DNA of 38,860 bases. Origin: an uncultured Candidatus Saccharibacteria bacterium (GTDB taxonomy: Bacteria > Patescibacteriota > Saccharimonadia > Saccharimonadales > Saccharimonadaceae). Shown piece by piece: positions 16,952-34,383 of this stretch. Each line of letters opens with the position of its first letter. The stretch's first letter is position 1. A program made the position numbers and the translations under genes. Location of the stretch: assembly GCA_946537195.1 (NCBI GenBank), contig CAMNFE010000004.1, positions 1 through 38,860 on the forward strand, given 5' to 3'. The notes below the pieces were generated by a model, which saw nothing but the letters and a program-made list of their open reading frames with translations, had not been told where the DNA came from and made no database searches.

Positions 16952-18556
16952 CTATCTGCGTACCGTGTTTTTACGCATAAAGAGACCGAGGCCAAGAAGC
17001 AATACGCCACCTGCTACGGCTACCGCATCAATACCGTCAAAGGTATTTGGGTTCTTTACGTTTGGTTTAGCTGCCGGTTTTTGTGCTGGTTGGCTTGGAG
17101 CTACTGCACCCGTCAAACGTAGGTAACCACCATTTGCTTCACCGGTTACTGGGATCTTTGAGCTACCTTTAAGAGCTAGGCCAACACCAGCGAGAGAGGC
17201 GTCCTTTAATTCTGCTACATCGGCAACAAATTCATTACCGCCACCGTTATATTCATATTTGACGCTCATATCACGATTAAAGTTGATCATCTTTACAACA
17301 GACGAAACCCCATCCATGCTAAAACCGTCAACGAGGGCAACCGTAAAGTCTTTATAAGCGCGGACATTACCGATATTCATGGACGAAACGTTATATTCGC
17401 CTAATTTCTTGCCATTTTTATCAAAGCTCATCACCTTCACTACCTTGTGAGTATTAGCCTCCGTAGTAGCCACCATTACGTCACCTTGCTTGTTTGCGGA
17501 TAGTAAATACGATGAACTACTATCTACGCCTTCTAGTTGGCGTTGTTTTTCTGAGCCTAAGTTCTTACTAATATCAACTGTTTGGACTGTATATTTGTCA
17601 GTTGTCTCATCGTATGTAATCTTCTCCGCTACATACGAATCGCCAGCTGGGAACAAATTTACATACGTAACGTTTCCGCCCATAGGAGTACTCGCAATCA
17701 CATTACCTGCAGCATCAAGCGCCGCTAAAGCTCCTTCATGCCCTAGCTGAACAATGCTTGACCCATCATTATTAAAGTAGGCTTTACCAATACGATCCGG
17801 AGCATTGATGGAGCCCGCCGTTCCTTTGGCGCCGCTATTTGAGAAATTATAGATCATACCATAGCTAGTCATTAAGCGATAACCATTAGAAACTTTTTTG
17901 ACTGCAACCGGTTGTACGCTATCTTCAAAAGTCGTGAGCCATTCTTTCGTGCCATCCGTTTTGAATTTAGCAATGTAATCAATACAAGAAGCACGATAAG
18001 CATATTCTTCATCCGTACTACCTTTATCTGTCGCATATGATGCAAACACGTCTTGCTGGCCAAAGCCACAAGCTTTTGCCAAAAGTGTATTGCTAACATT
18101 ATCTTCAAAACTAGATTGAGCAGGCGTTCCGACTGCCCCCTGAATAGCCATAGATTTCGCAGCCGCGGATCCACGGTCTGTATTTTTAGGCGTTTTTATG
18201 GCGCCTGGATAATAGTTCCAAAAGTCCGCCCATTTATTATCTTGATAATATTTAATACATTCTTCGTACGGCGCTGCTTCAACATTCTTTCCTTCTGCAA
18301 AGTCTGAAACGTCCAAGCTCATAGCCTTAAGCTTAGTTTCAGGCTCATCGTCAATGTATTTATAGCAAGCTACTGTTTGGCCGCCCACAACGTAGCCGCC
18401 ATCGCTGGTCGCTTCTACGACCCAGTTTATTGTGTCGGCACCTTCTACCTGACCGACACTTTTTTCGTAATCAACCATACCTGCCGCCGAAACGCCACTA
18501 AATGGCAGGATCGCCGCAGCAAGAATAGCCGAAGCCCCCAATAGTACTCTCTTCAT
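16952..18556 (-). CDS. Surface protein, signal peptide, C-terminal NPNTFD-type sorting/anchor motif
   Basis: MKRVLLGASAILAAAILPFSGVSA signal peptide; C-terminus KNPNTFDGIDAVAVAGGVLLLGLGLFMRKNTVRR. Confidence 0.8.
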   Translation of the reverse strand: MKRVLLGASAILAAAILPFSGVSAAGMVDYEKSVGQVEGADTINWVVEATSDGGYVVGGQTVACYKYIDDEPETKLKAMSLDVSDFAEGKNVEAAPYEECIKYYQDNKWADFWNYYPGAIKTPKNTDRGSAAAKSMAIQGAVGTPAQSSFEDNVSNTLLAKACGFGQQDVFASYATDKGSTDEEYAYRASCIDYIAKFKTDGTKEWLTTFEDSVQPVAVKKVSNGYRLMTSYGMIYNFSNSGAKGTAGSINAPDRIGKAYFNNDGSSIVQLGHEGALAALDAAGNVIASTPMGGNVTYVNLFPAGDSYVAEKITYDETTDKYTVQTVDISKNLGSEKQRQLEGVDSSSSYLLSANKQGDVMVATTEANTHKVVKVMSFDKNGKKLGEYNVSSMNIGNVRAYKDFTVALVDGFSMDGVSSVVKMINFNRDMSVKYEYNGGGNEFVADVAELKDASLAGVGLALKGSSKIPVTGEANGGYLRLTGAVAPSQPAQKPAAKPNVKNPNTFDGIDAVAVAGGVLLLGLGLFMRKNTVRR

Positions 18557-18631
18557 ATTATTTAACCTTTTTATTTTGACCTTTATATAAGTCCATCCTA
18601 GCATAAGCTTTTTAAATGGTCAAGTGGGAAA

Positions 18632-18660
18632 AGAAAAGCCCCCACATGGGGGGCTTTGGT
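18632..18660 (-). terminator. Terminator hairpin between the tandem surface-protein genes
   Basis: AAAGCCCCC-acat-GGGGGGCTTT. Confidence 0.7.
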
Positions 18661-18682
18661 CATAAAAAGGTTAGGGAAGTAA

Positions 18683-20278
18683 TTATCTACGTGCCAAATT
18701 TTTGCGAAGGAATATACCAAATCCGAGCAATCCTAATCCGCAAATTATCGCTACCACATCAATACCGTCAAAGGTATTTGGGTTCTTTACGTTTGGTTTA
18801 GTTGATGGTTTTTGTACTGGTTGACTTGGAGCTGCTGCGCCCGTCAAACGTAGGTAACCGCCATTTGCTTCACCGGTTACTGGGATCTTTGAGCTACCCT
18901 TGAGCGCCAAGCCGACGCCTGCAAGCGAGTCATCTTTTAGCCTTGCCACATCGGCGACAAATTCATCACCACCACCGACATATTCATATTTAACACTTAA
19001 ATCACTATTAAAGCTTATCATTTTTACTAAACGCGCCGTTTCCGAGAACACAGCTTCTCCATCAACGAAACCGAGCGTAAAGTCTTTGAAGCTCTTAAAA
19101 CCTTCCATGTTAGCCGAACCGAAATCATATTGTCCAAGCTTATTACCGCTCTTATCGAAGCTTGCAATAATATTATCTTGCCCCTCAGAGCCTAGAGCGT
19201 AGAGACCGACAATAATGTTTCCCGCTCTATCGGCGCTTAGCAAAGCTGCTCCTTTCCCAGCTGGAACATTTAGCGAGCGCTTCGTAATAGTGCTTAAGTC
19301 CTTCGCGATATCAACTATTTCGCTACTAGATGAGGCTGGGTCACTCCCGAATATCTGTTTTTGCGCAACGTATCCGTTATCCGTCGGAAATAGATTGTAG
19401 AAAAAGCCGTTTTCTAGCCTCTCTGTTTTAAGAACTGCACCTGCAGCGCTATGCGCTACTAAAGTTTTCGAGCTTCCTGGTAGAGACCTGCCAACTAAAG
19501 CAATCGTCGACCCGTCGTCGTTAAAGTATGCGCTACTAATCATATCGTTTACACGGTTAACTCTATTCTCGCCCTTGGCACCAGTGCTAGAAAAGTCATA
19601 AACCATACCATACGAAGTCATTAGGCTATAACCGTTACCTACCTTCTTTACCGCTACAGGCCTTTGACTATCCTCTACGGTAGTTAACCATTGCTTTGTG
19701 CCATTCGACTGAAACTTTGCGATATAGTCAATACAAGAGGCAGCATATGAATATGTTTCATCGCCATCGTCATCGTCGTTGGCCCAATTGGTCACCAATC
19801 CGCCATCCCCGAAACCGCACACCTTGGCAATTAAGGTTTTACTTACATTCATCATGAACTCGTCGCCAGATGTGGACACCCCTCTCTTATCGTCGTCATT
19901 AGTATTAGCCCCTAAAACCGGCACCATGCCCGGATGATAATTCCAAGTCTCTATATATCCATGGTCTTGGTAATACTTTAAACATTCCGAGAAAGGTGCA
20001 ACCTCAACACCTTCTTCGTCCGCATATGAAAACGCTTTCATGTCGCCTTTCATCTGTAGGACTGGCTCCGGCAACATATCCTTGTAACACATAATGGTCT
20101 GGCCGCCTACAACGTAACCGCCATCATCAGTCGCTTCTACGACCCAGTTTACAGTATCAGCCCCATCTACTTGACCAATACTTTTTTCATAATCGACTAC
20201 GCTTGTTGCCGAAACGCCACCAAAAGGCAGTATCACCGCGGACAAAATAGCCAATATCCCCAATAGTCCTCTTTTCAT
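18683..20278 (-). CDS. Surface protein paralogue of the downstream gene, NPNTFD-type anchor
   Basis: MKRGLLGILAILSAVILPFGGVSA signal peptide; aligns end to end with the 16952-18556 product; C-terminus KNPNTFDGIDVVAIICGLGLLGFGIFLRKNLARR. Confidence 0.8.
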   Translation of the reverse strand: MKRGLLGILAILSAVILPFGGVSATSVVDYEKSIGQVDGADTVNWVVEATDDGGYVVGGQTIMCYKDMLPEPVLQMKGDMKAFSYADEEGVEVAPFSECLKYYQDHGYIETWNYHPGMVPVLGANTNDDDKRGVSTSGDEFMMNVSKTLIAKVCGFGDGGLVTNWANDDDDGDETYSYAASCIDYIAKFQSNGTKQWLTTVEDSQRPVAVKKVGNGYSLMTSYGMVYDFSSTGAKGENRVNRVNDMISSAYFNDDGSTIALVGRSLPGSSKTLVAHSAAGAVLKTERLENGFFYNLFPTDNGYVAQKQIFGSDPASSSSEIVDIAKDLSTITKRSLNVPAGKGAALLSADRAGNIIVGLYALGSEGQDNIIASFDKSGNKLGQYDFGSANMEGFKSFKDFTLGFVDGEAVFSETARLVKMISFNSDLSVKYEYVGGGDEFVADVARLKDDSLAGVGLALKGSSKIPVTGEANGGYLRLTGAAAPSQPVQKPSTKPNVKNPNTFDGIDVVAIICGLGLLGFGIFLRKNLARR

Positions 20279-20435
20279 GTTAATTTGACCTTTTTATTTT
20301 GACCTTTTTATGGAGAAATATTAACATAAGCATTTTTCAAAGTCAACCCCCTATTGATTTTTTATTAAAATAATGACATAATAATAGAGGACAAATGTAC
20401 AAATGAGACATTAGCACGTTAGGAGGATGATTAGT

Positions 20436-21434
20436 ATGAAAGATTTTCAGATTTTGACTGACGCTGTGGCTGACTTGCCCCAACAAATCAAGTCGCTCGA
20501 CTATATTACCGTGATCCCCACCCCAATCATCATATCGGGCGTCCATAATATCACGATAACTGATTTATCGCCCGACGATTTCGGAGAAGTTGAACGTTTT
20601 ATCAAGCAGGGCGATCGCGCCACTACCAGTCAACCGCAGGTGTTCGACCCATATCGCGAGAGTTTCAACAGTGTCGAGACTACTACGCGGCGCCTCGTCG
20701 AACAAGGCAAAGATGTCGTCTACATCACGATGAATAGCAGCCTCAGCGGCACTTTTAGCTCTGTTTCACTTTGCTATGCAGAACTTGAAGATTGGGCTAA
20801 AGAGCAGGGGAGAACAGTTCGCTGCGTGGACTCTAGATGTATGTCAACCGGCCTTGCACTTCTCTTCTTAGAGCTTGTCGAAGCAATTAATCATAACGAC
20901 GTCAAAAACGTCAATGATATCGTGAACTTTGTCGAGAAAGAGCGGGGACATATCGGCCACTTCTTTACCTGGGGAGAGCTCTCCTATATCAAGCTCTCTG
21001 GCCGTGTTAGCTCAGTCAAAGCAACGCTTGGCACTCTTCTCGGCGTTCGTCTGATTGGCTCAGCTCAATATGTCAATGGTGGCACGGAACGCAAGCTTGA
21101 GCACGTCAACCCGGGCGCTATGATTCGCAGCCTAGCTAAATTTGGCGACGTCATCGGCATTTATGCCCAAAAGCACATCAGCAACCCTCATGGGCCTATT
21201 ATCGTTGCTCACGGCAATGTGCCACGCGACGCAGCACTCGTCAAAGAACGTATGCAAAGGTATTTACCGAACGCAAACTTTCTCATTGGCCACGACTGGC
21301 GTTGCGGAGCCGGCATCCAAATCCATGGCGGCCCAACCTCTCTCCATATCAATTTCCGCACCGACAATATCGGAGACCTCGAAACTACGACTGAAGAAAT
21401 GGAGACAATTATCCGCAAAATGCGTAAAAAGTAA
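20436..21434 (+). CDS. DegV family (fatty-acid-binding fold) protein
   Basis: ILTDAVADLP...ITMNSSLSGTFSSVSLCYAELE...VDSRCMSTGLALL typical of DegV; SD TTAGGAGG upstream of ATG 20436. Confidence 0.85.
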   Translation: MKDFQILTDAVADLPQQIKSLDYITVIPTPIIISGVHNITITDLSPDDFGEVERFIKQGDRATTSQPQVFDPYRESFNSVETTTRRLVEQGKDVVYITMNSSLSGTFSSVSLCYAELEDWAKEQGRTVRCVDSRCMSTGLALLFLELVEAINHNDVKNVNDIVNFVEKERGHIGHFFTWGELSYIKLSGRVSSVKATLGTLLGVRLIGSAQYVNGGTERKLEHVNPGAMIRSLAKFGDVIGIYAQKHISNPHGPIIVAHGNVPRDAALVKERMQRYLPNANFLIGHDWRCGAGIQIHGGPTSLHINFRTDNIGDLETTTEEMETIIRKMRKK

Positions 21435-21447
21435 CTCGATCATCCAC

Positions 21448-21476
21448 TCAAAAGCCCTGCTTATGCGGGGCTTTTT
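21448..21476 (+). terminator. Terminator of the DegV gene
   Basis: AAAAGCCCTGC-TTAT-GCGGGGCTTTTT. Confidence 0.85.
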
Positions 21477-21732
21477 GCATTATTTGGCAAAAATTAACAG
21501 GGGTCCAACAGAGGTGAAAATAGGGTAGGGGAAGCGCAAAATTCGATTTTAGGCCATTTTGGGGTCATAATTGGCAATTCGACCATCAGCCACTTTTTTG
21601 ACAAATTTTCAAATCAAAATTTACAGCCTAAAATTTACGGAGAAAAAATTCGTGAAAAAAATTTTCAAAAAAATATTTCACAAAATTTTGATTTTTGGCG
21701 GGGGAAGTGCTAATTTTTCAATTTTAGCCCCC

Positions 21733-21807
21733 TACCCCTGTTATTCTTATATTCACCCCTGTTATACCCCTTTTCTACCCCTGTTAGAGGCCGATTTACC
21801 CCTGTTA
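21733..21807 (+). repeat. Iteron-like array: four direct copies of (T/C)ACCCCTGTTA at 21-22 bp spacing
   Basis: Copies at 21733, 21754, 21776 and 21797. Confidence 0.8.
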
Positions 21808-22013
21808 AATGTCAAAATCAGGCCTAAATTCAAAAATAGGCCTTAAAACGCGCTAGGACACGCGAAGATGCATAAGCAGTATACAAACACGTAAATATAG
21901 TTAGAACGGCATTAGAACGCAAAGTAGAGGCCAAATAGAGCAAAAGCCAGCCAGGACTTGAATTATAAGCATAAACGAGACGGGTGTACAATCAACTTTT
22001 CGCTATATTTCCA

Positions 22014-22041
22014 ATGTCGCACAATGTATATTTTACGACAT
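22014..22041. other. Candidate dif site (XerC/D recombination site)
   Basis: ATGTCGCACAA-TGTATA-TTTTACGACAT: 11-6-11 layout, arms 9/11 inverted-complementary, spacer identical to E. coli dif, in a convergent intergenic region. Confidence 0.6.
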
Positions 22042-22187
22042 ACATATATGCACACGCCAGTTATATAACAAATCATCGTACATAACACATACGTCTGCAG
22101 AAGAGCCCTATTAATAGATATAATTCTATTCTCGCGCTACATATTACAGATCTCCACGCCAAAATCAAAAAAACGCCAAAATAGGGG

Positions 22188-22216
22188 GCTCCCCCGGAAA
22201 AAATCTCCGGGGGAGC
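22188..22216. repeat. GC-rich perfect 11-bp inverted repeat
   Basis: GCTCCCCCGGA-AAAAATC-TCCGGGGGAGC. Confidence 0.8.
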
Positions 22217-22499
22217 GGCCGCTGCATTTTATCATTTGACATCAATGTTGTTATTTATACAATGCGACCCCTGTAAAACTACATATTAGAACATATTCAC
22301 GCCCATCCCGCTATATATTTCACGCGTGAAATCCCCAATTAATTTGACTTTTTTCTTGTTTTATTTTTTTATCGCTCCCCTACCCCCTTGGCCTGCTTTT
22401 TTGAAAGTCTTTTTCCTGCACACCCTTCCCGCACCGCTTCTTTTCCATTCACTCCACCCGAACAAAAACCGAACGCTCAGGGAACTCAGGGGAGTGGGA

Positions 22500-22524
22500 A
22501 CAAAAAACCAGGGGTCTACCCCTG
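22500..22524 (-). terminator. Terminator of the FtsQ-like gene
   Basis: Minus strand CAGGGGT-AG-ACCCCTG followed by GTTTTTTG. Confidence 0.8.
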
Positions 22525-22525
22525 A

Positions 22526-23143
22526 TTATTTGTAATAGGCTTTCCCCTCTACACGTAGATCAACGTATGAGGCTTTTATCTTTTTCTTATCAAGATAGCG
22601 GATCATCCGCGCCATATCTTCAGCTTGCACAGCGCTACTGCGATCAATTGTCATCTTATAGTATTCGTTACGATCCTTAATGTGGATATGGATTTCACGC
22701 ACCTTATTTAGTGGCAATATTACATGATCAACCTGATAGCCTTCGGATTTCACATCATCTTCTAGATGTGCCACAAATTCCTTCACGCGTGGCGAAACCT
22801 TCGTATCGGCATTCTCATCGGCGATATCTACAGTCGGCTCCGGCACCTTAACGACTTCTTTTTTCGCATTGTTTTCCGCAATCACGTCCGCTATATAGTG
22901 ACCGAACACCAAAGCAATTAGCGCCACAATCAACACTATGCCTATCACTGTCGCAATGTTTTTGCGCTTCGTCTTTTTGCGCTCTTTCATGCGTTCAAGC
23001 TTAGCCTTGCGCTCGTCAGAAAAAGCATCGCCCGCAATCGTACGCCCAATTCTGAAGCTCTCATTCTGGCGTCCTTTGCGGCGCGCCGGCACGGCTTCAA
23101 TCTTTATCTCTTGCTTTTTCTTCTTGCCACCAAGTAGCCCCAT
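22526..23143 (-). CDS. Membrane protein, divergent FtsQ/DivIB-like
   Basis: Basic N-terminus, one TM (NIATVIGIVLIVALIALVFGHYIADV), C-terminal ASYVDLRVEGKAYYK resembling the FtsQ 'DLR..gkayyk' ending. Confidence 0.6.
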   Translation of the reverse strand: MGLLGGKKKKQEIKIEAVPARRKGRQNESFRIGRTIAGDAFSDERKAKLERMKERKKTKRKNIATVIGIVLIVALIALVFGHYIADVIAENNAKKEVVKVPEPTVDIADENADTKVSPRVKEFVAHLEDDVKSEGYQVDHVILPLNKVREIHIHIKDRNEYYKMTIDRSSAVQAEDMARMIRYLDKKKIKASYVDLRVEGKAYYK

Positions 23144-23151
23144 TTATGCTC

Positions 23152-24222
23152 CTAGCGATCTTGTAATACTTCTAGTCCTGGCAATGTTTTTCCGGACAAT
23201 AATTCCAAGCTAGCGCCGCCACCAGTCGAAACTAAGCCAAACTTTAGATTTTCTTCTTTTAGAGACTCTACAAAGCCTGTTGTATCGCCACCGCCTACAA
23301 TCGAGAAACAATTCTCCTGAGAACCAATTGCGCGCGCTACTGCTAATGAAGCTTTAGCAAAACGCTCATCTTCAACCATACCAAGCGTACCGTTCCAAAC
23401 TACGGTCCTGGCTTGGTTCACCATCGCAATAATATCTTCTGCGCAGCGTAGTGAAATATCTAACTTTGCACCTTGCTCATCGGTTTCAAATTCATCTGCT
23501 ACGTAAATCTTTTCGTCGTAAGAGCGATATCCGTCCGCCGCAATCTTGCCACCTACAGCGATCCTGTCGGCAATTGGCAAAAACTTATCAATTAGAGGCT
23601 GTTTGTCTTCAACCTTTGCGCCGCCAATAATCACGAGTAGTGGGCGTGCTGGATTCTTCATGGCATTTTCGAGGCTTGAAACTTCTTTCTCAACCAAAAA
23701 TCCTGCTACGGCTGGAATCTTTTTCGCAATCGCCTCCGTAGAAGTGTGCGCACGATGAATTACTGCAAAACCGTCTTGCACGAAAATCTCTGCGCCAGTT
23801 GCGGCGATAATCTCGTCAGCAAAACTGTCTGAATTTTCTTCTTCTTGAGGCGAGAAACGTAAGTTCTCGAGCACCAAAATCCCACCTTGTGGCAATTCCG
23901 ATACCGCATTTTTAACTTCGTCGCCAACCGTTTCCTTAACAAAACGCACGGTCTTCCCTGGCATTAATTCTGCCAAACGCTCTGCAGTTGGCGCTAGGGA
24001 CATTTCTGGAACAACTTTCCCATCTGGACGACCGAGGTGAGAAATCAATATTATTTTCGCTGCGCCCTGCTCTATCAAGTATTCCAAAGTTGGAATGCTA
24101 GCGCTGATTCTCATGTCTTCTTTAATAACACCGTCTTTTACCGGCACATTGTAGTCAACTCGTACCAATACCGTCTTCCCTGCCACCTCTATATCACGCA
24201 CTGTCTTTTTGCGAAAATCCAT
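23152..24222 (-). CDS. pgk: Phosphoglycerate kinase (compact, 356 aa)
   Basis: VLVRVDYNVP, ISHLGRPDG, LENLRF, IGGAKVEDK, VVWNGTLGMVE, GGGDTT, STGGGASLELL. Confidence 0.97.
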   Translation of the reverse strand: MDFRKKTVRDIEVAGKTVLVRVDYNVPVKDGVIKEDMRISASIPTLEYLIEQGAAKIILISHLGRPDGKVVPEMSLAPTAERLAELMPGKTVRFVKETVGDEVKNAVSELPQGGILVLENLRFSPQEEENSDSFADEIIAATGAEIFVQDGFAVIHRAHTSTEAIAKKIPAVAGFLVEKEVSSLENAMKNPARPLLVIIGGAKVEDKQPLIDKFLPIADRIAVGGKIAADGYRSYDEKIYVADEFETDEQGAKLDISLRCAEDIIAMVNQARTVVWNGTLGMVEDERFAKASLAVARAIGSQENCFSIVGGGDTTGFVESLKEENLKFGLVSTGGGASLELLSGKTLPGLEVLQDR

Positions 24223-26424: not shown

Positions 26425-27600
26425 CTACTTCTCTTTTGCGACACTAATCACGGTTTCCGCCAAACTTTCAGCGGCATTATCTTTCGTGAAACTATGCAAA
26501 TTAGCGGATAATTTATCACAATCTCTTTCACTACGTAGTAAATGCGTCACCGCATCCAGCAATAACTCTGGTTTTTTCATCATCTTCGAATCGGACACTA
26601 CAATCGCCGCCTCGGCTTTTTCATAAGCTTTTGCATTTTTAACCTGATGACGACCTGGTAATTCTTCATTTGGCACCATAATCACCGGTTTCGCCATACC
26701 TGAAAGCTCTGTCATAGTTGAAGCACCAGCGCGCGAAATCACAATATCTGCCGCACCAAACAACTTCCACATTTCGCTCGAAAACTCAATCATTCGGAAG
26801 TTTGACTTCAGCTCACCGTCTTCCCACTTTTCATAATCTTTCAAATCCATCATATCCGGATAGCGTTCACGGCCCGCCACCAACATCACAGAGGCCTTCT
26901 TTAAGAGCTCCGGGAGAATTTCGCGCATTGTTAGATTAATATCCTCTGCACCGAGACTACCACCGGTGGCTAAAACTAGCTTCTTCTCTGGATCAAAACC
27001 TAACTCTTTCTTCAAGGCACGCTGTTTTCGTTCTGAGACCGGGCGAAATTCCTCGCTAATCGGAATTCCTGTCCACTCTGCCTTATGTTCAGGATAAGAA
27101 TAGTAGCTGAGCGGCATTCCCGTTGCAATCTTTGCCGCTTTCTTTGAAAGCAATCGATTCGTTAAACCTGGAGTAGCATCGCTGTCGTGAATTACATATG
27201 GGATTCTAAGCAAACGTGCCGCTAAACCAACCGGCAAACATACGTATCCACCCTTTAAGAAAATCGCATCAGGTCGCTTGAAGACCAATCGGAAAAAGCT
27301 CTGGAAAAAGCCACCAATCGTCTTAAAGAGATCGACAAAGTTATTAAGTACGATGTCAAAATGGCGCAAATAATCCATGAAACTAAAACCGGCATAACGA
27401 CGCAGTTTACCGGCCGCCACCTTTTTGATATCGATTTCCATCCCGTTTTCAATTGTAATTTTACGGGCGTTTTTGTAGTATTTTTTATCAGTCCAAAAAT
27501 CTATCTTGGCTCGTGGTCTTTTTTTCCAAATTTCACGTACGACGGCGACTACCGGCGTAACGTGGCCCCCGCTGCCCCCGCCCACTACTAGAATCTTCAT
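26425..27600 (-). CDS. murG: UDP-GlcNAc:undecaprenyl-PP-MurNAc-pentapeptide GlcNAc transferase
   Basis: VVGGGSGGHVTPVVAVVRE, IHDSDATPGLTNRLLS, ATGGSLGAEDIN, VISRAGASTMTELSGMAKPVIMVPNEELPGRHQVKNA. Confidence 0.95.
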   Translation of the reverse strand: MKILVVGGGSGGHVTPVVAVVREIWKKRPRAKIDFWTDKKYYKNARKITIENGMEIDIKKVAAGKLRRYAGFSFMDYLRHFDIVLNNFVDLFKTIGGFFQSFFRLVFKRPDAIFLKGGYVCLPVGLAARLLRIPYVIHDSDATPGLTNRLLSKKAAKIATGMPLSYYSYPEHKAEWTGIPISEEFRPVSERKQRALKKELGFDPEKKLVLATGGSLGAEDINLTMREILPELLKKASVMLVAGRERYPDMMDLKDYEKWEDGELKSNFRMIEFSSEMWKLFGAADIVISRAGASTMTELSGMAKPVIMVPNEELPGRHQVKNAKAYEKAEAAIVVSDSKMMKKPELLLDAVTHLLRSERDCDKLSANLHSFTKDNAAESLAETVISVAKEK

Positions 27601-28714
27601 CTATTGCTTCTCTTTTTGTCCATCTAGATATTTGTAATGTCATGCCGACGGCAAATGCTACGAACATCATGCTCGAGCCTCCGTGGCTCAGGAATGGCAG
27701 CGTAATTCCCTTCATTGGTATTAGCGCTAGCATTCCACCTACGTTGATTATAACATGAGCAAAAATCCAGGCAAAAACCCCAAGCGTAAAGAAGCTTTGC
27801 GCCTCATCTTCCGTCTTTCGCGAAACGTCAATCAAATGCCATAGTAATATTGCATAAATCAGCAAAATACCAACCGCGCCGATAAAACCCCAGGCTTCGC
27901 CTACTACCGAAAAAATCGAATCACTCGGCGCCTCTGGTAGATAACCCGTCGTCTGTACGCTATTGCCCAGGCCAACCCCAAAAGCACCACCCGTACCAAA
28001 ACCAATCAACGAGTTCATGATATGAAAATCATCGCCCTGCCCGCTAAAACTCGCCAAACGCGTCAAACGGTGCGGCGCAATATTAATCAAAAGAATCACG
28101 CAAGCAAGTACAACAAGAGCAAATACGCCTAACTGTTTCCAAGGCATTTCGCCTACGAACATCATCGCGCCTAGCATAATATAAATTACCGCTGTGCTAC
28201 CTAAATCTTTCTCCAAAAACGCCACAATAAAGGCAATTGCTGCAATCAAGGTCACCATCGGCACCCAGAATTCCCCCTTATCTAGCTGTTTATTCTTGCG
28301 TCGGTCTGACACCAACCAAGCACCATAAAATAGCACCGCTATCTTTAAAAGCTCTGCCGGCTGTAAGCTTCCCATTATTGGAATCCTCAAAGCACGGCAC
28401 GCACCTTCGTCACAAATCACTAAGGATTCCGCACCAGCTCGGCCCAAAACTGCCGTCAAAAAGCATAAAACCAAAGATACGGCAACAGCCGCCTTGCTGA
28501 CTTTTCCAAGCTTTTTATATGGTATTAAAGCGCCTGCAATTAAAGCCAAAACGGACGCAAATACGCTTTTCAGTTGTCCTGAAAAATAGTAGTCATTCGA
28601 GAAACCTTCCGATTGCGCCGCACGCGGACCAATCGCGTAAATAATCACCAGCCCGGCCGCCATCAGCCCCACCGTCAAAAGCAGAATCGTGAAATCCGGT
28701 CGGTGTTTTCTCAC
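27533..28714 (-). CDS. ftsW: FtsW/RodA/SpoVE-family lipid II polymerase
   Basis: Multi-TM; LQPAELLKIAVLFYGAWL, FLEKDLGSTAVI, GIGLGNSVQ-like FGVGLGNSVQTTGYLPEAPSDSIFSVVGEAWG, LPFLSHGGSSMM. Confidence 0.95.
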   Translation of the reverse strand: MRKHRPDFTILLLTVGLMAAGLVIIYAIGPRAAQSEGFSNDYYFSGQLKSVFASVLALIAGALIPYKKLGKVSKAAVAVSLVLCFLTAVLGRAGAESLVICDEGACRALRIPIMGSLQPAELLKIAVLFYGAWLVSDRRKNKQLDKGEFWVPMVTLIAAIAFIVAFLEKDLGSTAVIYIMLGAMMFVGEMPWKQLGVFALVVLACVILLINIAPHRLTRLASFSGQGDDFHIMNSLIGFGTGGAFGVGLGNSVQTTGYLPEAPSDSIFSVVGEAWGFIGAVGILLIYAILLWHLIDVSRKTEDEAQSFFTLGVFAWIFAHVIINVGGMLALIPMKGITLPFLSHGGSSMMFVAFAVGMTLQISRWTKREAIDEDSSSGRGQRGPRYAGSRRRT

Positions 28715-29742
28715 TTAATTATGCCCCCACCCATTGCTAGAAATATACCAAGCATTGCCGTTACGCCACCGATAATCCAGAAGCGCATTACTACTTTACT
28801 TTCTTCCCATCCTTTGGCTTGCAAATGATGATGAATTGGTGCCGAAACGAAGACCTTTTTATGGAAGAAACGTTTCGAACAGATCTGAATTAAAGAACTG
28901 CCGGCTTCTACTACAAAAAGCGCACCGATGATCGGTAGCAACAAGAAAGAATTGGTCATCATCGCCACCACACCTAAACCAGCGCCCAGCGCAAACGACC
29001 CAGTGTCGCCCATCATAAAACGAGCCGGATAGACATTAAACCAAATATAAGAAAGCAAAGCACCAATCACAATAAAGCAGAATCCTGCTAAGAACCATTG
29101 GCCTTGCAAAAGCGCAATTACGCCATAAGAACCGTAAGCTAACATGGCAAGGCCACCCGCCAAACCATCCATACCATCCGAAATATTTACTGCGTTACCA
29201 GTTGCTACCACTGCAAAAGTAAAGAGCGCGATCATGCCGACAATACCGATATTAATCTGCCCCACATAAGGTACCATTACCGAAGTCCACCCAAGCTTTA
29301 CGGCAAAGAACCAACCTAGCGCTAAACCTAAGGCCGTAATCATCGCAAACTTAACTGGCGCACGCAAACCGGCAGCAGCATTTTTGCCGAACAAATTGAT
29401 TACGTCGTCAATAAAGCCAATAATACCGCCACCAACAAAAGCCGCAATCGGTAGCCATGTTTGACCACGATTTAGACATTCACAAGCAATCAGCACGATC
29501 GGCACTGCAACTAGCATAATCATGCCCGCCATCGTCGGAAAATGTCGCTGAATTTTGTCCTTATGCAGCTCGTTCATGACCTTTAATTCTTTGCCCGTCA
29601 CATCAACGCTTTTTTGGCGTTTCCATAGTTTGTGCTTATAGGCAAAAGTTGTATAAATTGGCGTCAAAAACATCGAAAGCAAAAAAGCACCAAGCGCGAG
29701 AATCAACTCGTATCCTATATATGAATTAATACTATCTAACAT
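28711..29742 (-). CDS. mraY: Phospho-MurNAc-pentapeptide transferase
   Basis: FPTMAGMIMLV, GFIDDVINL, NISDGMDGLAGG, FMMGDTGSFALGA, PIHHHLQAKGWEE. Confidence 0.95.
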   Translation of the reverse strand: MLDSINSYIGYELILALGAFLLSMFLTPIYTTFAYKHKLWKRQKSVDVTGKELKVMNELHKDKIQRHFPTMAGMIMLVAVPIVLIACECLNRGQTWLPIAAFVGGGIIGFIDDVINLFGKNAAAGLRAPVKFAMITALGLALGWFFAVKLGWTSVMVPYVGQINIGIVGMIALFTFAVVATGNAVNISDGMDGLAGGLAMLAYGSYGVIALLQGQWFLAGFCFIVIGALLSYIWFNVYPARFMMGDTGSFALGAGLGVVAMMTNSFLLLPIIGALFVVEAGSSLIQICSKRFFHKKVFVSAPIHHHLQAKGWEESKVVMRFWIIGGVTAMLGIFLAMGGGIIK

Positions 29743-29757
29743 CCGGCTTTATCCTTT

Positions 29758-31503
29758 CTATTTTATCGGCTCTATCCTTAAATATTCTAACAAATAATTG
29801 CTAATCTCGGTAAATACTGGCACCGCATCCAACGATCCCCAGAGCAAGCTGCTACCATCTAGACGCACCATTATGACGTATTCCGGCAATGACCCGTTCG
29901 TGTTTTTGCGACCATAACCAATCACGCTCGCAATTGTTGCGTCTGAAGTATATTTACCGCTCGCATCATAAGTTTCCGAGGTGCCGGTTTTAATTCCGAT
30001 CTTGTAACCCGCCTTGTCGCCAGAACGCGGCACTTCATTAGCGCGCACCTCTTCTAGCATCGAACGCATCTCCTCGCTCGTGCCTTTTGTTATTGTTTGC
30101 CTGACCGGTCCTTTATCATCATCTTTATAGAAAGATTTATTTTTCATCACTCCCGCTATCACTGTAGGAGTATAGTAATCTCCGCCATTTACTAACGACG
30201 AAAAACCAGCCGCCACCTGCAACATCGTCAAGTTCATACCCTGGCCGAAAGTCATATTCGCATAGCGTACCGCATTCCCCTCGTCTTCTTCCGGGCTAAT
30301 AATAACACCCGGCGCATCATATATTTCTACGCCCGTTCTCTTCCCTAAACCAAAATGATCAGTTAGATAGCTATAAAGTTTTCGACGCGCATCCTTCGTA
30401 ATTGAACCTCCCCCCAAACGACGCAGGGCTTCAATCGATCCGGTATTAAATGAATAATCTAATGCCGTTCTGAAAGAGATCTGGCCTAGAGCTTTATTTG
30501 TTAACGCGTTCTGCATTCTACGGTCTTCGACGTAAGTATAGCCAGCGTTATAATAAGTGTCGTTCGGCCTTAATACTCCTTCATTAATCGCCGCAGCATA
30601 CGTAAAAGTCTTACAAACCGAAGCTGGCTCATAAGGCGATTCGGTTACGCGATTAATAAACAAAGACGCATCTTTTTCTTTGTAGTAAGTTTCCGGATTA
30701 TAAGATGGGTAATTCGCCATCGCCATAACTTTACCGTTATTCGGATTCATTACAATTGCGCTGGCTGCCGTGATTGCACGATTATTCTCCATTCTAGTCT
30801 TCAAAATCTTCTCGATTTTGCGCTGGATATTTTCGTCCACCGTCAAAACTATGTTTTCACCATCTTGCGCCGGAATCTCAATATTATCATCTCCAATAGA
30901 AAGCGGAATATCATGTACGTCTGTAATGGTTTTAAGCATACCATTTTTGCCCGCCAATCGATCATTTAGTGAGCCCTCCAAACCCGTGCCTACCCCCTCC
31001 GCATTTACGAAGCCTAGTATTTGTGCGCCTAATTGTCCGGCCGGATAAACTCTACGCGAAGTTTCTTTTTGCCCTACCCCGCGCAAATTTGCCTCTCGTA
31101 CTTTAGTTACGGTCTCATAGTTCACATGTTTTGCAATTTCAACATAGCCGCTCTTCATGTCAGACCAAACTTTATCCCAAGTCGTAATCATTTGATTTCC
31201 GAGAATATTCGACAACTGCGCCTGGACTTTGTCTTTATCATTTACATAACTTGGATCAACGAAAATCAACCAGGTGCGCTCGTTCATAATAACTGGAGTC
31301 GTCGCGTTTTCGCCGTCCATCATATAAACTTCACCGCGTTTTGCGAGTAAAGAATACTTCGAAACGCGCATCTCACTTGCCGCATCAACATATTTACGGT
31401 GATCAATAATTTGCACCAGGAATAATCGCACCACTGCAATAAAAACAGCCATGAAAATAGCTATTTTCATCAATAAATAACGCGATCTGCGCGACATAAA
31501 CAT
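29758..31503 (-). CDS. ftsI: Penicillin-binding protein 2/FtsI-like transpeptidase
   Basis: SXXK-type YEPASVCKTFTYAAA, SFN motif DYSFNTGSIEA, KTG motif GIKTGTSETYD. Confidence 0.93.
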   Translation of the reverse strand: MFMSRRSRYLLMKIAIFMAVFIAVVRLFLVQIIDHRKYVDAASEMRVSKYSLLAKRGEVYMMDGENATTPVIMNERTWLIFVDPSYVNDKDKVQAQLSNILGNQMITTWDKVWSDMKSGYVEIAKHVNYETVTKVREANLRGVGQKETSRRVYPAGQLGAQILGFVNAEGVGTGLEGSLNDRLAGKNGMLKTITDVHDIPLSIGDDNIEIPAQDGENIVLTVDENIQRKIEKILKTRMENNRAITAASAIVMNPNNGKVMAMANYPSYNPETYYKEKDASLFINRVTESPYEPASVCKTFTYAAAINEGVLRPNDTYYNAGYTYVEDRRMQNALTNKALGQISFRTALDYSFNTGSIEALRRLGGGSITKDARRKLYSYLTDHFGLGKRTGVEIYDAPGVIISPEEDEGNAVRYANMTFGQGMNLTMLQVAAGFSSLVNGGDYYTPTVIAGVMKNKSFYKDDDKGPVRQTITKGTSEEMRSMLEEVRANEVPRSGDKAGYKIGIKTGTSETYDASGKYTSDATIASVIGYGRKNTNGSLPEYVIMVRLDGSSLLWGSLDAVPVFTEISNYLLEYLRIEPIK

Positions 31504-31558
31504 AAGTAGATTATACTACATTTAACCCCTTATTCTATATAGAAAAGCATAAAAACTA

Positions 31559-31587
31559 TTGACTTTTTCGCAAAAGTATGCTATAAT
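31559..31587 (+). promoter_or_regulatory. Consensus promoter divergent from ftsI
   Basis: TTGACT - 17 nt - TATAAT, with TATGC extended -10. Confidence 0.8.
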
Positions 31588-31651
31588 CTCTCGCAATATC
31601 GTAAGGGGTGGGGTACGAAGTACCTTACCGGACAAGAGAAAGGTGGAGACC

Positions 31652-31945
31652 ATGGCTTACGTGCCGCGTTTCCCCAATGTCACAGCCGCCGAGATCGTCA
31701 ACAAGTACCACTTCGACGAAGCGGCCGAAGAGCTCCACATGAAGCCCTTCGAGTCGCACCTCTGCGAGATCCCCAACGTCGCCATTTCCGACTATTGGCG
31801 AGAGGAGGAGTACCTTCGCGAGGAGGTCGAGCTTTGCGGGCGCCTGCTGTTCGTCCTCCCCATCGATGAATGCACGATGGATGACCGCATCGCACTCGCC
31901 GAACGCAAGGCTCTCGTCAACTGGTGGCTGTCCGCACTCTACTGA
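31652..31945 (+). CDS. Small acidic hypothetical protein (97 aa), unusually GC-rich codons
   Basis: Own promoter, SD-like AAAGGTGGAG before ATG, followed by a terminator at 31962-31990. Confidence 0.7.
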   Translation: MAYVPRFPNVTAAEIVNKYHFDEAAEELHMKPFESHLCEIPNVAISDYWREEEYLREEVELCGRLLFVLPIDECTMDDRIALAERKALVNWWLSALY

Positions 31946-31961
31946 TATCCACCCCACTACA

Positions 31962-31990
31962 AGGGCCCCGAGCTAACTCGAGGCCTTTTT
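31962..31990 (+). terminator. Terminator of the 97-aa ORF
   Basis: GGCCCCGAG-CTAA-CTCGAGGCC-TTTTTT. Confidence 0.75.
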
Positions 31991-32055
31991 TCCTTCTCCG
32001 TAAAAAATTCCGGCCAAACACTTACCGGAATTTTTTCATACAAGAAAAATGTATA

Positions 32056-32418
32056 TTATTCTTTTACAAAATCCGCACTGTTGGCGTCAGCCATTGCTGC
32101 TGCCACCTGATTTTTATCCTCATCGGCTGCCGCCGCGGTAATCTTCGCATTTTCCACCGCTAGAGCGTCGCGTTGCGCTTCGAGGTTTACAATTTCACTA
32201 TCTACCTCGGCTATTTCGACATCATAATTAGTCACTTTAGTACTTTGCGTCAGAAAAATTAAGCCAGTTAGTAGCACAATTAGCACAATAGTAATTGTAT
32301 GACTAACCGGCCCCAGGACTATCTTTGAATTATGACGTACATCATTACGATTACGCGCCCAAGTATTACTTGTGCTTCTCGTTCCCGTCATTCTTCTGGT
32401 TGCATAATATGCTGGCAT
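32056..32418 (-). CDS. FtsL-like small bitopic protein
   Basis: Position between rsmH and ftsI; single TM (TITIVLIVLLTGLIFLTQS) followed by a coiled-coil-like segment. Confidence 0.65.
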   Translation of the reverse strand: MPAYYATRRMTGTRSTSNTWARNRNDVRHNSKIVLGPVSHTITIVLIVLLTGLIFLTQSTKVTNYDVEIAEVDSEIVNLEAQRDALAVENAKITAAAADEDKNQVAAAMADANSADFVKE

Positions 32419-32461
32419 CAAAATATTCCGTTTTTGTTTTTATTTTTTCTCTACACTTAAG

Positions 32462-32512
32462 CTTTGGCGGTGAGCTGGACGACAAGAGAAAAACGTCCAG
32501 CTCCTACCAAAG
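32462..32512 (-). promoter_or_regulatory. Long hairpin upstream of the ftsL-like gene
   Basis: CTTTGG...GAGCTGGACG/CGTCCAGCTC...CCAAAG, 16 paired bp with an internal loop. Confidence 0.6.
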
Positions 32513-32678
32513 AAGGTCAAAAATGTTTTTTAGTTTACACACTCCGCACTAACTACACCTATTGTAGAGGCACCCCGTTATCGGGGCATATAGGTCTTGT
32601 TCGCGTTTTTAGCATCAAAAAGATTGTTTTATCGGTCAAAATAAAAATCTATTTGTTGGTCAAAATTACTGCTAAATA

Positions 32679-32741
32679 CTAGCGGAAGTGAACTTTAACT
32701 TGTTGTGCACGGCTTCTGTTCGTGACAGTAATCTTTGCCAT
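32679..32741 (-). CDS. Candidate 20-aa small ORF MAKITVTNRSRAQQVKVHFR
   Basis: ATG preceded by AAAAAGGAGTAAGGAGT (strong SD) between rsmH and the ftsL-like gene. Confidence 0.45.
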   Translation of the reverse strand: MAKITVTNRSRAQQVKVHFR

Positions 32742-32815
32742 ACTCCTTACTCCTTTTTGTTTTTTGTTTTTACGATGGCGCCTTAGTCCAGGACTTCAAG
32801 TGCCATCAAGATTGG

Positions 32816-33691
32816 TCAGATCTTTTCGGCCACCCTAAGTTTTGCACTACGCGCACGGGGATTATTAACAATTTCGATATTGTCCGCAATAATCGGTTTC
32901 TTAGTAATTATCTTCAGTGTCGACTCTAGGCCTTTGCTGCTTTCGTCCTTAAAATACTCTTTAACGAGTCGATCCTCGAGGCTATGGAACGTAATAATCG
33001 CTACTCTTCCGCCCGGATTCAATAATTTGGGCAATAATGGCAATGTTTTCTCGATAATTCCGAGCTCGTCGTTCACGACAATCCTTATTGCTTGAAAAAT
33101 CCGTGTCGCCGGATGCGTATGCGAGTACGGTGATTTTGACTTTATTAAATCAGCGAGTTCGGTAGTTGTTTCGACTGGCCGATTCATGCAGATTTCGCGG
33201 GCTAGCAATTCAGCACGACCACGTCGTTCCTCTGCGTATTTCTCAAAAATATCCGCTAGTTTTCGTTCGCTCCACTTATTTACTACCGTCCATGCGTCCA
33301 ATTCTTGCGACTCGTCCATTCGCATATCGAGTCGTGCCTTTTTCGCAAACGAAAAACCTCGTTCCCCCTCGTCTAATTGCGGTGAAGAAACTCCAAAGTC
33401 CGCCAAAATCATATCAAAGCTAATTCCACTCTCCACAAGTAGTAGCGCAGTACTATAAAAATCATCATGCATCAATTTCGGCTTCACCTCTTGGTACTTC
33501 GCTTCTAAGAAATTAATTGCATTTTGATCACGGTCATTCAGGACCGCACCTTTATAGTTCCGAGTTACTTCCAAAATTTTATCAGCATGCCCACCGTATC
33601 CCGCCGTGAGATCTAAATATGTCTCGCCATTTTGCGGCTGCAGATACTCTAATACGCTCGATAATAATACTGGAATATGAACTTCATTCAT
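32816..33691 (-). CDS. rsmH: 16S rRNA m4C1402 methyltransferase
   Basis: HIPVLLSSVLEYL, YLDLTAGYGGHADKIL, DFGVSSPQLDEGERGFSF, RMDESQ, ATRIFQAIRIVVNDELG, ITFHSLEDRLVK. ATG at 33691, 6 nt after TATAAT. Confidence 0.96.
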   Translation of the reverse strand: MNEVHIPVLLSSVLEYLQPQNGETYLDLTAGYGGHADKILEVTRNYKGAVLNDRDQNAINFLEAKYQEVKPKLMHDDFYSTALLLVESGISFDMILADFGVSSPQLDEGERGFSFAKKARLDMRMDESQELDAWTVVNKWSERKLADIFEKYAEERRGRAELLAREICMNRPVETTTELADLIKSKSPYSHTHPATRIFQAIRIVVNDELGIIEKTLPLLPKLLNPGGRVAIITFHSLEDRLVKEYFKDESSKGLESTLKIITKKPIIADNIEIVNNPRARSAKLRVAEKI

Positions 33692-34383
33692 TTCTTCATT
33701 ATATCTTAGTTCGAACCCGAGCATCTAGAAATTTCAGGTGTTTGTGTTTTTTGTTGTTTATTTTATCCTTTACACATTTAAGATTCCACAATTACAGCCA
33801 GCTTATAGCCAACCCATTAATTATGGAGTTGAGAGACTTAATTTGTGTGAGGTGGAGTTATATGTTTGGGAGGTGTGTATTTTATAGAATGAACCTACGG
33901 TTTCTTTTTCGCGTATCCTAAACGCGCCTAAAACTCCTAGATGTCCGAGTTCGAACGCTATTAATGTGCATAAAAATAAAGACCAATATTAGTGCTTTGA
34001 AAGGGTAACAATCTGGTATGCATTCGATTGGTCTTTGATCTCAATCTTCCTTTTCATACTTTTTATTTTTCCAACCGTCCTTTGGTTTTTATTTTTATTT
34101 CGTGGTGTTTATTTTGTTTCCACTTGTCCTTAGTTTAAGCAACAAATCCAAAAATTTCAAGACCCATTTTTGCCTAGTTTTCCACATTTTGGTGTAAAAC
34201 ATGATCAATTAACAGGGGAAAAACCGAACAAAATATTTGTTTTACTTATGTTTTTCCACACTTGCAAAACTTTATTGACAATGTTTTAAAAACCGAACAG
34301 CAAAGCCCTTGAAATTATTACAATTTATTGCAAAACTATTGCCCTGCCCGCTCTTGATTATTTCGCAAAATATTTCTAAATAA

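Follow-up and report, generated by a model that had tools for sequence, protein, structure and literature searches.

A probable dif site of Saccharibacteria is conserved across much of the CPR and lies apart from the GC-skew switch

A 28-bp sequence in a Saccharibacteria genome is very probably the dif of this type of chromosome, and one instance of a dif common to much of the CPR at which an Xer/FtsK/KOPS system would resolve chromosome dimers. Judged from the genomes compared here, it is most likely the site at which fused sister chromosomes come apart in Saccharibacteria and in ultra-small bacteria related to them. It has an 11-6-11 layout with partly inverted arms, is present in one copy per chromosome and is conserved above its surroundings, both in relatives and across the phylum. 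These genomes encode a single cognate Xer recombinase with intact catalytic residues, together with an FtsK gamma domain; polar motifs converge on the site, which is displaced from the point where GC skew switches. No published CPR dif or KOPS was found among the open-licence papers searched.

Results

Layout and surroundings of the site

The window, by which we mean the whole stretch of DNA analysed (38,860 nucleotides), is contig C4 of an 835,831-bp assembly in 65 contigs that is 86% complete. At 22014-22041 it reads ATGTCGCACAA-TGTATA-TTTTACGACAT, which is the canonical 11-6-11 layout that a sequence-only reading of this DNA had described. Direct comparison bore out the inverted complementarity of the arms at 9 of 11 positions and the identity of the spacer with that of E. 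coli dif, while the earlier estimate of about 19 identities in 27 with E. coli dif is close to our own count of 18 in 28. The site and its neighbours are as follows.

22014..22041, plus strand: predicted dif site, 28 bp, 11-6-11 (sequence; single in its own genome; relatives; phylum-wide core)
22014..22024, plus strand: putative left Xer-binding arm ATGTCGCACAA, counterpart of the XerC arm of classical dif (direct comparison)
22025..22030, plus strand: central 6-bp spacer TGTATA
22031..22041, plus strand: putative right Xer-binding arm TTTTACGACAT, at the XerD-arm position (direct comparison), with TTT-R-CGAC conserved (column table)
22016..22039, plus strand: 24-bp conserved core GTCGCACAAT...CGAC, the pattern for the phylum-wide search
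21435..22525, no strand: non-coding region around dif, 1,091 bp (ORF list)
20427..21434, plus strand: DegV-family protein gene, left neighbour, which differs among relatives
22526..23143, minus strand: gene for a 205-aa membrane-anchored protein, right neighbour, beside dif in most of the genus
23152..24222, minus strand: phosphoglycerate kinase gene, beside dif in most of the genus and not in other families

The non-coding region, previously put at about 1.1 kb, contains a lone ORF of 91 aa, which has a TTG start and is of low complexity, and no Rfam family reached its gathering score within it. Genes converge on the site, as had been noted: the DegV gene ends at 21434 on the plus strand, and the main genes from 22526 onward lie on the minus strand. 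To the left, gene strands are mixed close to the site, where two large minus-strand genes lie at 16952-20278, and are mostly plus further out. These two genes (16952-18604 and 18683-20278) are tandem paralogues; the encoded protein is of a secreted type, with a signal at its N terminus and an anchor-like segment at its C terminus. On the right, a minus-strand division and cell-wall cluster (26425-33724; MurG, FtsW, MraY, FtsI-like and RsmH, named by eye) starts about 4.4 kb from dif, a proximity that may be of interest. The region beside dif also holds, at 21734-21807 and 21495-21504, four direct copies of ACCCCTGTTA spaced 21-22 bp and one inverted copy, with looser copies at 22265 and 22515; elsewhere this 10-mer is scattered, with 12 copies in about 600 kb of a genome of the same genus (G034). 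CCCCTG favours the same strand on either side of dif in most of the genus.

Copy number and conservation

At up to three mismatches, no other copy of the 28-mer was found in the window (100 shuffles gave 0) or in the whole 835,831-bp assembly. Within a set of 61 genomes, made up of this genome, 34 more of the same genus and 12 other families of the order, the site was found at the same threshold in 47, nearly always once, and a reversed-pattern control gave 0. The single copy and the conservation among relatives that the sequence-only reading had set as checks were thus both found, and the conservation survives the loss of neighbouring synteny: while the right-hand neighbour genes are retained within the genus, in other families no tested neighbour gene was convincingly beside the site, which argues that the site is conserved in its own right. 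Two apparent two-copy genomes were set aside as evidence for integrated elements. Both matches in G003 belong to a single site, at which assembly contigs overlap by 55 nt, and G163 looks like two near-identical strains.

The 24-bp core was then sought in 384 genomes drawn evenly across the CPR/Patescibacteria phylum. It was present at up to two mismatches in 202 of these (the reversed control matched 1); in the other 182, where it has more than two mismatches or is absent, the core appears to be either not universal or divergent. A scan with a degenerate form of the core over 85,462 species gave at least 118 stretches. Among the matches listed, nearly every named organism belongs to the CPR (Saccharibacteria, Nomurabacteria, Kaiserbacteria, Moranbacteria, Berkelbacteria, Doudnabacteria and others), the exceptions being one Rhodoplanes and one Gammaproteobacteria bin, both possibly misbinned. 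Across 160 distinct sites, conservation drops outside the 28 bp, in a column table whose core columns are partly fixed by the search pattern and whose outer columns are free; within the spacer the second place is R, and bases become mixed towards the end.

A partial palindrome between convergent genes might also be conserved as a regulatory palindrome or as a terminator of transcription in both directions, which we regard as highly improbable. There is one copy per genome, the neighbouring genes are not shared across families, and the sequence lacks a T-run hairpin layout, the terminator-like elements of the region being a separate GC-rich hairpin at 22188-22216 and another hairpin at 21450-21475. 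Furthermore, the site carries the 6-bp spacer and core of known dif and shows KOPS polarity (see below).

Phages and possible integration at dif

Phages are known to use dif, CTX phage being one example. The core was found in 85 IMG/VR stretches; 72 of the 80 examined are intergenic, and several adjoin terminase and portal genes. Together with the contigs of G003, which end precisely at the site and overlap by 55 nt, this could be taken to mean that the site is mainly an attB for phages and mobile elements, conserved through their use. We consider this highly improbable: conservation at about one copy in element-free genomes is not expected of a bare attachment site, and neither would such a site draw KOPS-like motifs from both sides. 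Because phages use dif elsewhere, use as an attB fits identification as dif rather than replacing it.

The IMG/VR stretches that carry the core, among them contigs L369, L371, L389, L391, L413 and L415, have the appearance of CPR phages or prophages using the host Xer at dif, and the arms of their sites often come still closer to a palindrome (GTCGYACAAT...TTGTRCGAC). The break between G003 contigs C6 and C7 (L488:1-55 and L489:13022-13076) suggests a population branch, with variable integration, at dif. In several other bins, dif lies less than 200 bp from a contig end.

A single Xer recombinase and FtsK

One PF00589 protein, of 314 aa, was detected in the genome under study, on contig C2. 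Exactly one strong PF00589 protein was likewise found per genome across 12 genomes, with weaker extras, probably mobile, in two. Six residues (R157, K181, H257, R260, H283 and Y292) are invariant across ten aligned Xer proteins. No second recombinase that would make up an XerC and XerD pair was found in this genome or in near-complete relatives, and the near-symmetrical arms fit a single recombinase.

The 314-aa protein scores about 250 bits against each of the XerC and XerD models, well below their equivalog cut-offs, and passes the NCBIfam XerA_Arch cut-off (224 vs 220 bits), a pattern shared by 9 of 10 relatives; among solved structures, an archaeal XerC-like protein (4a8e) is its best match. 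Its raw bits are nevertheless higher for the XerC and XerD models, yet under their cut-offs, so that its ancestry could lie with either kind. Against the XerS model it reaches 123.6 bits (cut-off 267), which places it outside the XerS/difSL type, and it matches XerH weakly. FtsK_gamma was above its cut-off in all ten genomes searched, this one included.

Polar motifs converge on the site

In E. coli, the KOPS is GGGNAGGG. In six genomes, motif discovery sought short words directed towards dif whichever strand the genes are on, and still so directed between the skew switch and dif, a stretch that is diagnostic because a G-rich word merely following skew should flip there. This revealed a family of overlapping words (AGGGCA, AGGGAA, AGAGAA and AGCAGGG), summarised as AGRGNAG.

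We then used the 118 dif loci from the 85,462-species scan, none of which had entered motif discovery, as a test set. AGGGNAG occurred 478 times towards dif and 74 times away from it, with ratios of 286 to 29 in dif-directed genes and 42 to 6 in genes running away; by locus, 108 lean towards dif and 4 away. It ranked first of 4,145 patterns of the same shape (z 9.0, against a general spread of 1.3) and first of 15 anagrams (log-odds 2.08, against at most 0.83 for the others), and was denser within the first 600 bp from dif. Its resemblance to E. coli KOPS emerged blind and was not built in. Polar motifs converge on dif, and AGGGNAG would be the sequence that FtsK binds and loads on.

Within the window, AGRGNAG occurs 20 times on the plus strand and 3 times on the minus strand to the left of dif, and 2 and 17 times, respectively, to the right; overall 37 copies point towards dif and 5 away, a count for which the coding-strand control is weak because few genes there run away from dif. 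Copies directed towards dif include the following.

21522..21528, plus strand: KOPS-like AGGGTAG, nearest on the left
20806..20812, plus strand: KOPS-like AGGGGAG
20801..20807, plus strand: KOPS-like AGAGCAG
18673..18679, plus strand: KOPS-like AGGGAAG
22375..22381, minus strand: KOPS-like AGGGGAG, nearest on the right
23953..23959, minus strand: KOPS-like AGGGAAG
24175..24181, minus strand: KOPS-like AGGGAAG

GAAGAAG, the KOPS of L. lactis, was rejected as a candidate, its polarity being gone after coding-strand balancing. A raw ranking of 7- and 8-mers without coding-strand control was uninformative.

The site is displaced from the skew switch

The sequence-only reading had also proposed the site as a candidate chromosome terminus where forks meet, and had set a GC-skew extremum at this locus as a check. 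That check failed, and the proposal is not supported. GC skew in the window is negative on both sides of the site, with no sign change. As dnaA was not found in the 65 contigs of this assembly, its own origin could not be placed, and with the assembly so divided the outcome rests on the window and on relatives, several of them metagenome assemblies, in which the switch was located from sampled 10-20 kb stretches with a simple ORF caller. In G034, skew changes sign at dnaA, which lies at about 180 kb on contig C2, and a second time at about 190-200 kb on C1, where dif is at 422 kb. The switch lies at about 240-270 kb in G129 (dif at 119 kb), at 515-550 kb in G061 (CP023991.1; dif at 762 kb, dnaA antipode at 548 kb), at about 632-740 kb in G258 (dif at 858 kb), at 662-680 kb in G198 (dif at 753 kb, dnaA antipode at 678 kb) and at 712-740 kb in G287 (dif at 665 kb). 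Across these six CPR genomes with usable skew, the switch is thus tens to hundreds of kb from dif, or about 6-25% of the chromosome, and it falls near the dnaA antipode.

Gene polarity and KOPS track dif, not skew. Of the coding bases that lie between the switch and dif in the six genomes, 62-73% are still oriented towards dif. In this stretch, fourfold-site skew (gene-corrected, on the towards-dif strand and taken as the mean of the two gene strands) carries the opposite replichore's sign in G034, G129, G061, G258 and G198, with means of -0.09 to -0.29 as against +0.03 to +0.32 elsewhere, and is intermediate in G287 (+0.04). In addition, in 8 of 10 single-contig genomes transcription of dnaA heads into the arm that carries dif, which is 0.29-0.41 of the chromosome from dnaA.

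Two genomes were left out of switch location because their skew is nearly one-signed throughout: G305:C1 (L335-L354) ranges from -0.08 to -0.46, and G228:C1 (L315-L334) from +0.05 to +0.27 apart from a single sampled stretch at -0.01, and in both the skew additionally steps at dnaA. One-directional replication could account for this, as could a strong strand-wide bias.

It might still be argued that the site is dif and also the terminus at which forks meet, the skew being merely noisy. Gene orientation and KOPS polarity do switch at dif, and in Proteobacteria and Firmicutes dif lies within 0-1.39% of the genome (one standard deviation) of the skew shift-point, with outliers at most 3% away (PMC3025954). 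We nonetheless think it unlikely, given that skew is negative throughout the window, that fourfold-site skew between switch and dif takes the opposite replichore's sign in five of six genomes and that the switch sits near the dnaA antipode in G061 and G198. As far as composition tells, dif would not be the point where forks meet; the point that mutation bias marks is a different one, close to the antipode.

Opinion could fall either way on a broader proposal: that in the CPR the FtsK/KOPS/dif axis is stably separate from the fork-meeting axis across several lineages. Forks would then meet near the origin antipode and dif would lie some 6-25% away, with gene orientation following the FtsK/dif axis and leaving a stretch in which most genes run against the fork. 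Gene order may follow dif because FtsK translocation, with KOPS kept in coding strands, exerts selection on it; alternatively, it may record a former terminus at dif, the skew having been re-set later. A steady state is favoured because the sense of the offset is the same in several lineages (only six genomes were sampled).

Discussion

The proposal that this 28-mer is the Xer dimer-resolution site of its lineage is strongly supported by its near-single copy per genome, its conservation across the phylum, the single Xer, the FtsK gamma domain and the convergent KOPS-like motifs. We infer that Xer binds and cleaves the site, that FtsK activates the reaction and that chromosome dimers are resolved there. 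The single 314-aa Xer tyrosine recombinase most likely binds both near-palindromic arms and acts as a homotetramer across a pair of sister sites. Working at the division septum, FtsK would load on AGGGNAG-type KOPS, polarised to dif from both sides, and pump the chromosome until dif is reached; its gamma domain would then activate strand exchange, through which the dimer would become two monomers.

A large section of the bacterial tree, most of it uncultivated, is given here a concrete dif sequence, a recombinase and a motif that would guide FtsK. With dif separated from the skew switch, CPR genomes offer natural tests of two long-standing questions: do forks terminate at dif, and does replication or the FtsK/dif axis determine how genes are oriented? 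CPR phages and integrated elements that use the host Xer are also flagged by the site, which aids host assignment.

Like archaeal XerA/dif, the CPR system has a single Xer, one that passes the XerA_Arch cut-off, but its raw bits are higher for the XerC and XerD models. Archaea in general are not known to have FtsK or KOPS. The systems of streptococci (XerS/difSL) and of Helicobacter and relatives (XerH/difH) likewise combine one recombinase with two arms, whereas the CPR protein matches both XerS and XerH weakly. The difSL site is longer and adjoins xerS; the CPR site resembles classical dif more closely, and in the genome under study xer is on another contig than dif. Compared with the dif/XerCD systems of E. 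coli and B. subtilis, the CPR has one Xer and not two, its arms are nearer to a perfect palindrome and its right arm is unlike the TTATGTTAAAT XerD arm; furthermore, in contrast to the dif of Proteobacteria and Firmicutes, CPR dif lies away from the GC-skew switch. With E. coli and B. subtilis it shares a 28-bp, 11-6-11 site in single copy with a common CGCA.AATGTATATT centre, the FtsK gamma domain, and polar KOPS-like motifs aimed at the site, AGGGNAG in the CPR as compared with GGGNAGGG.
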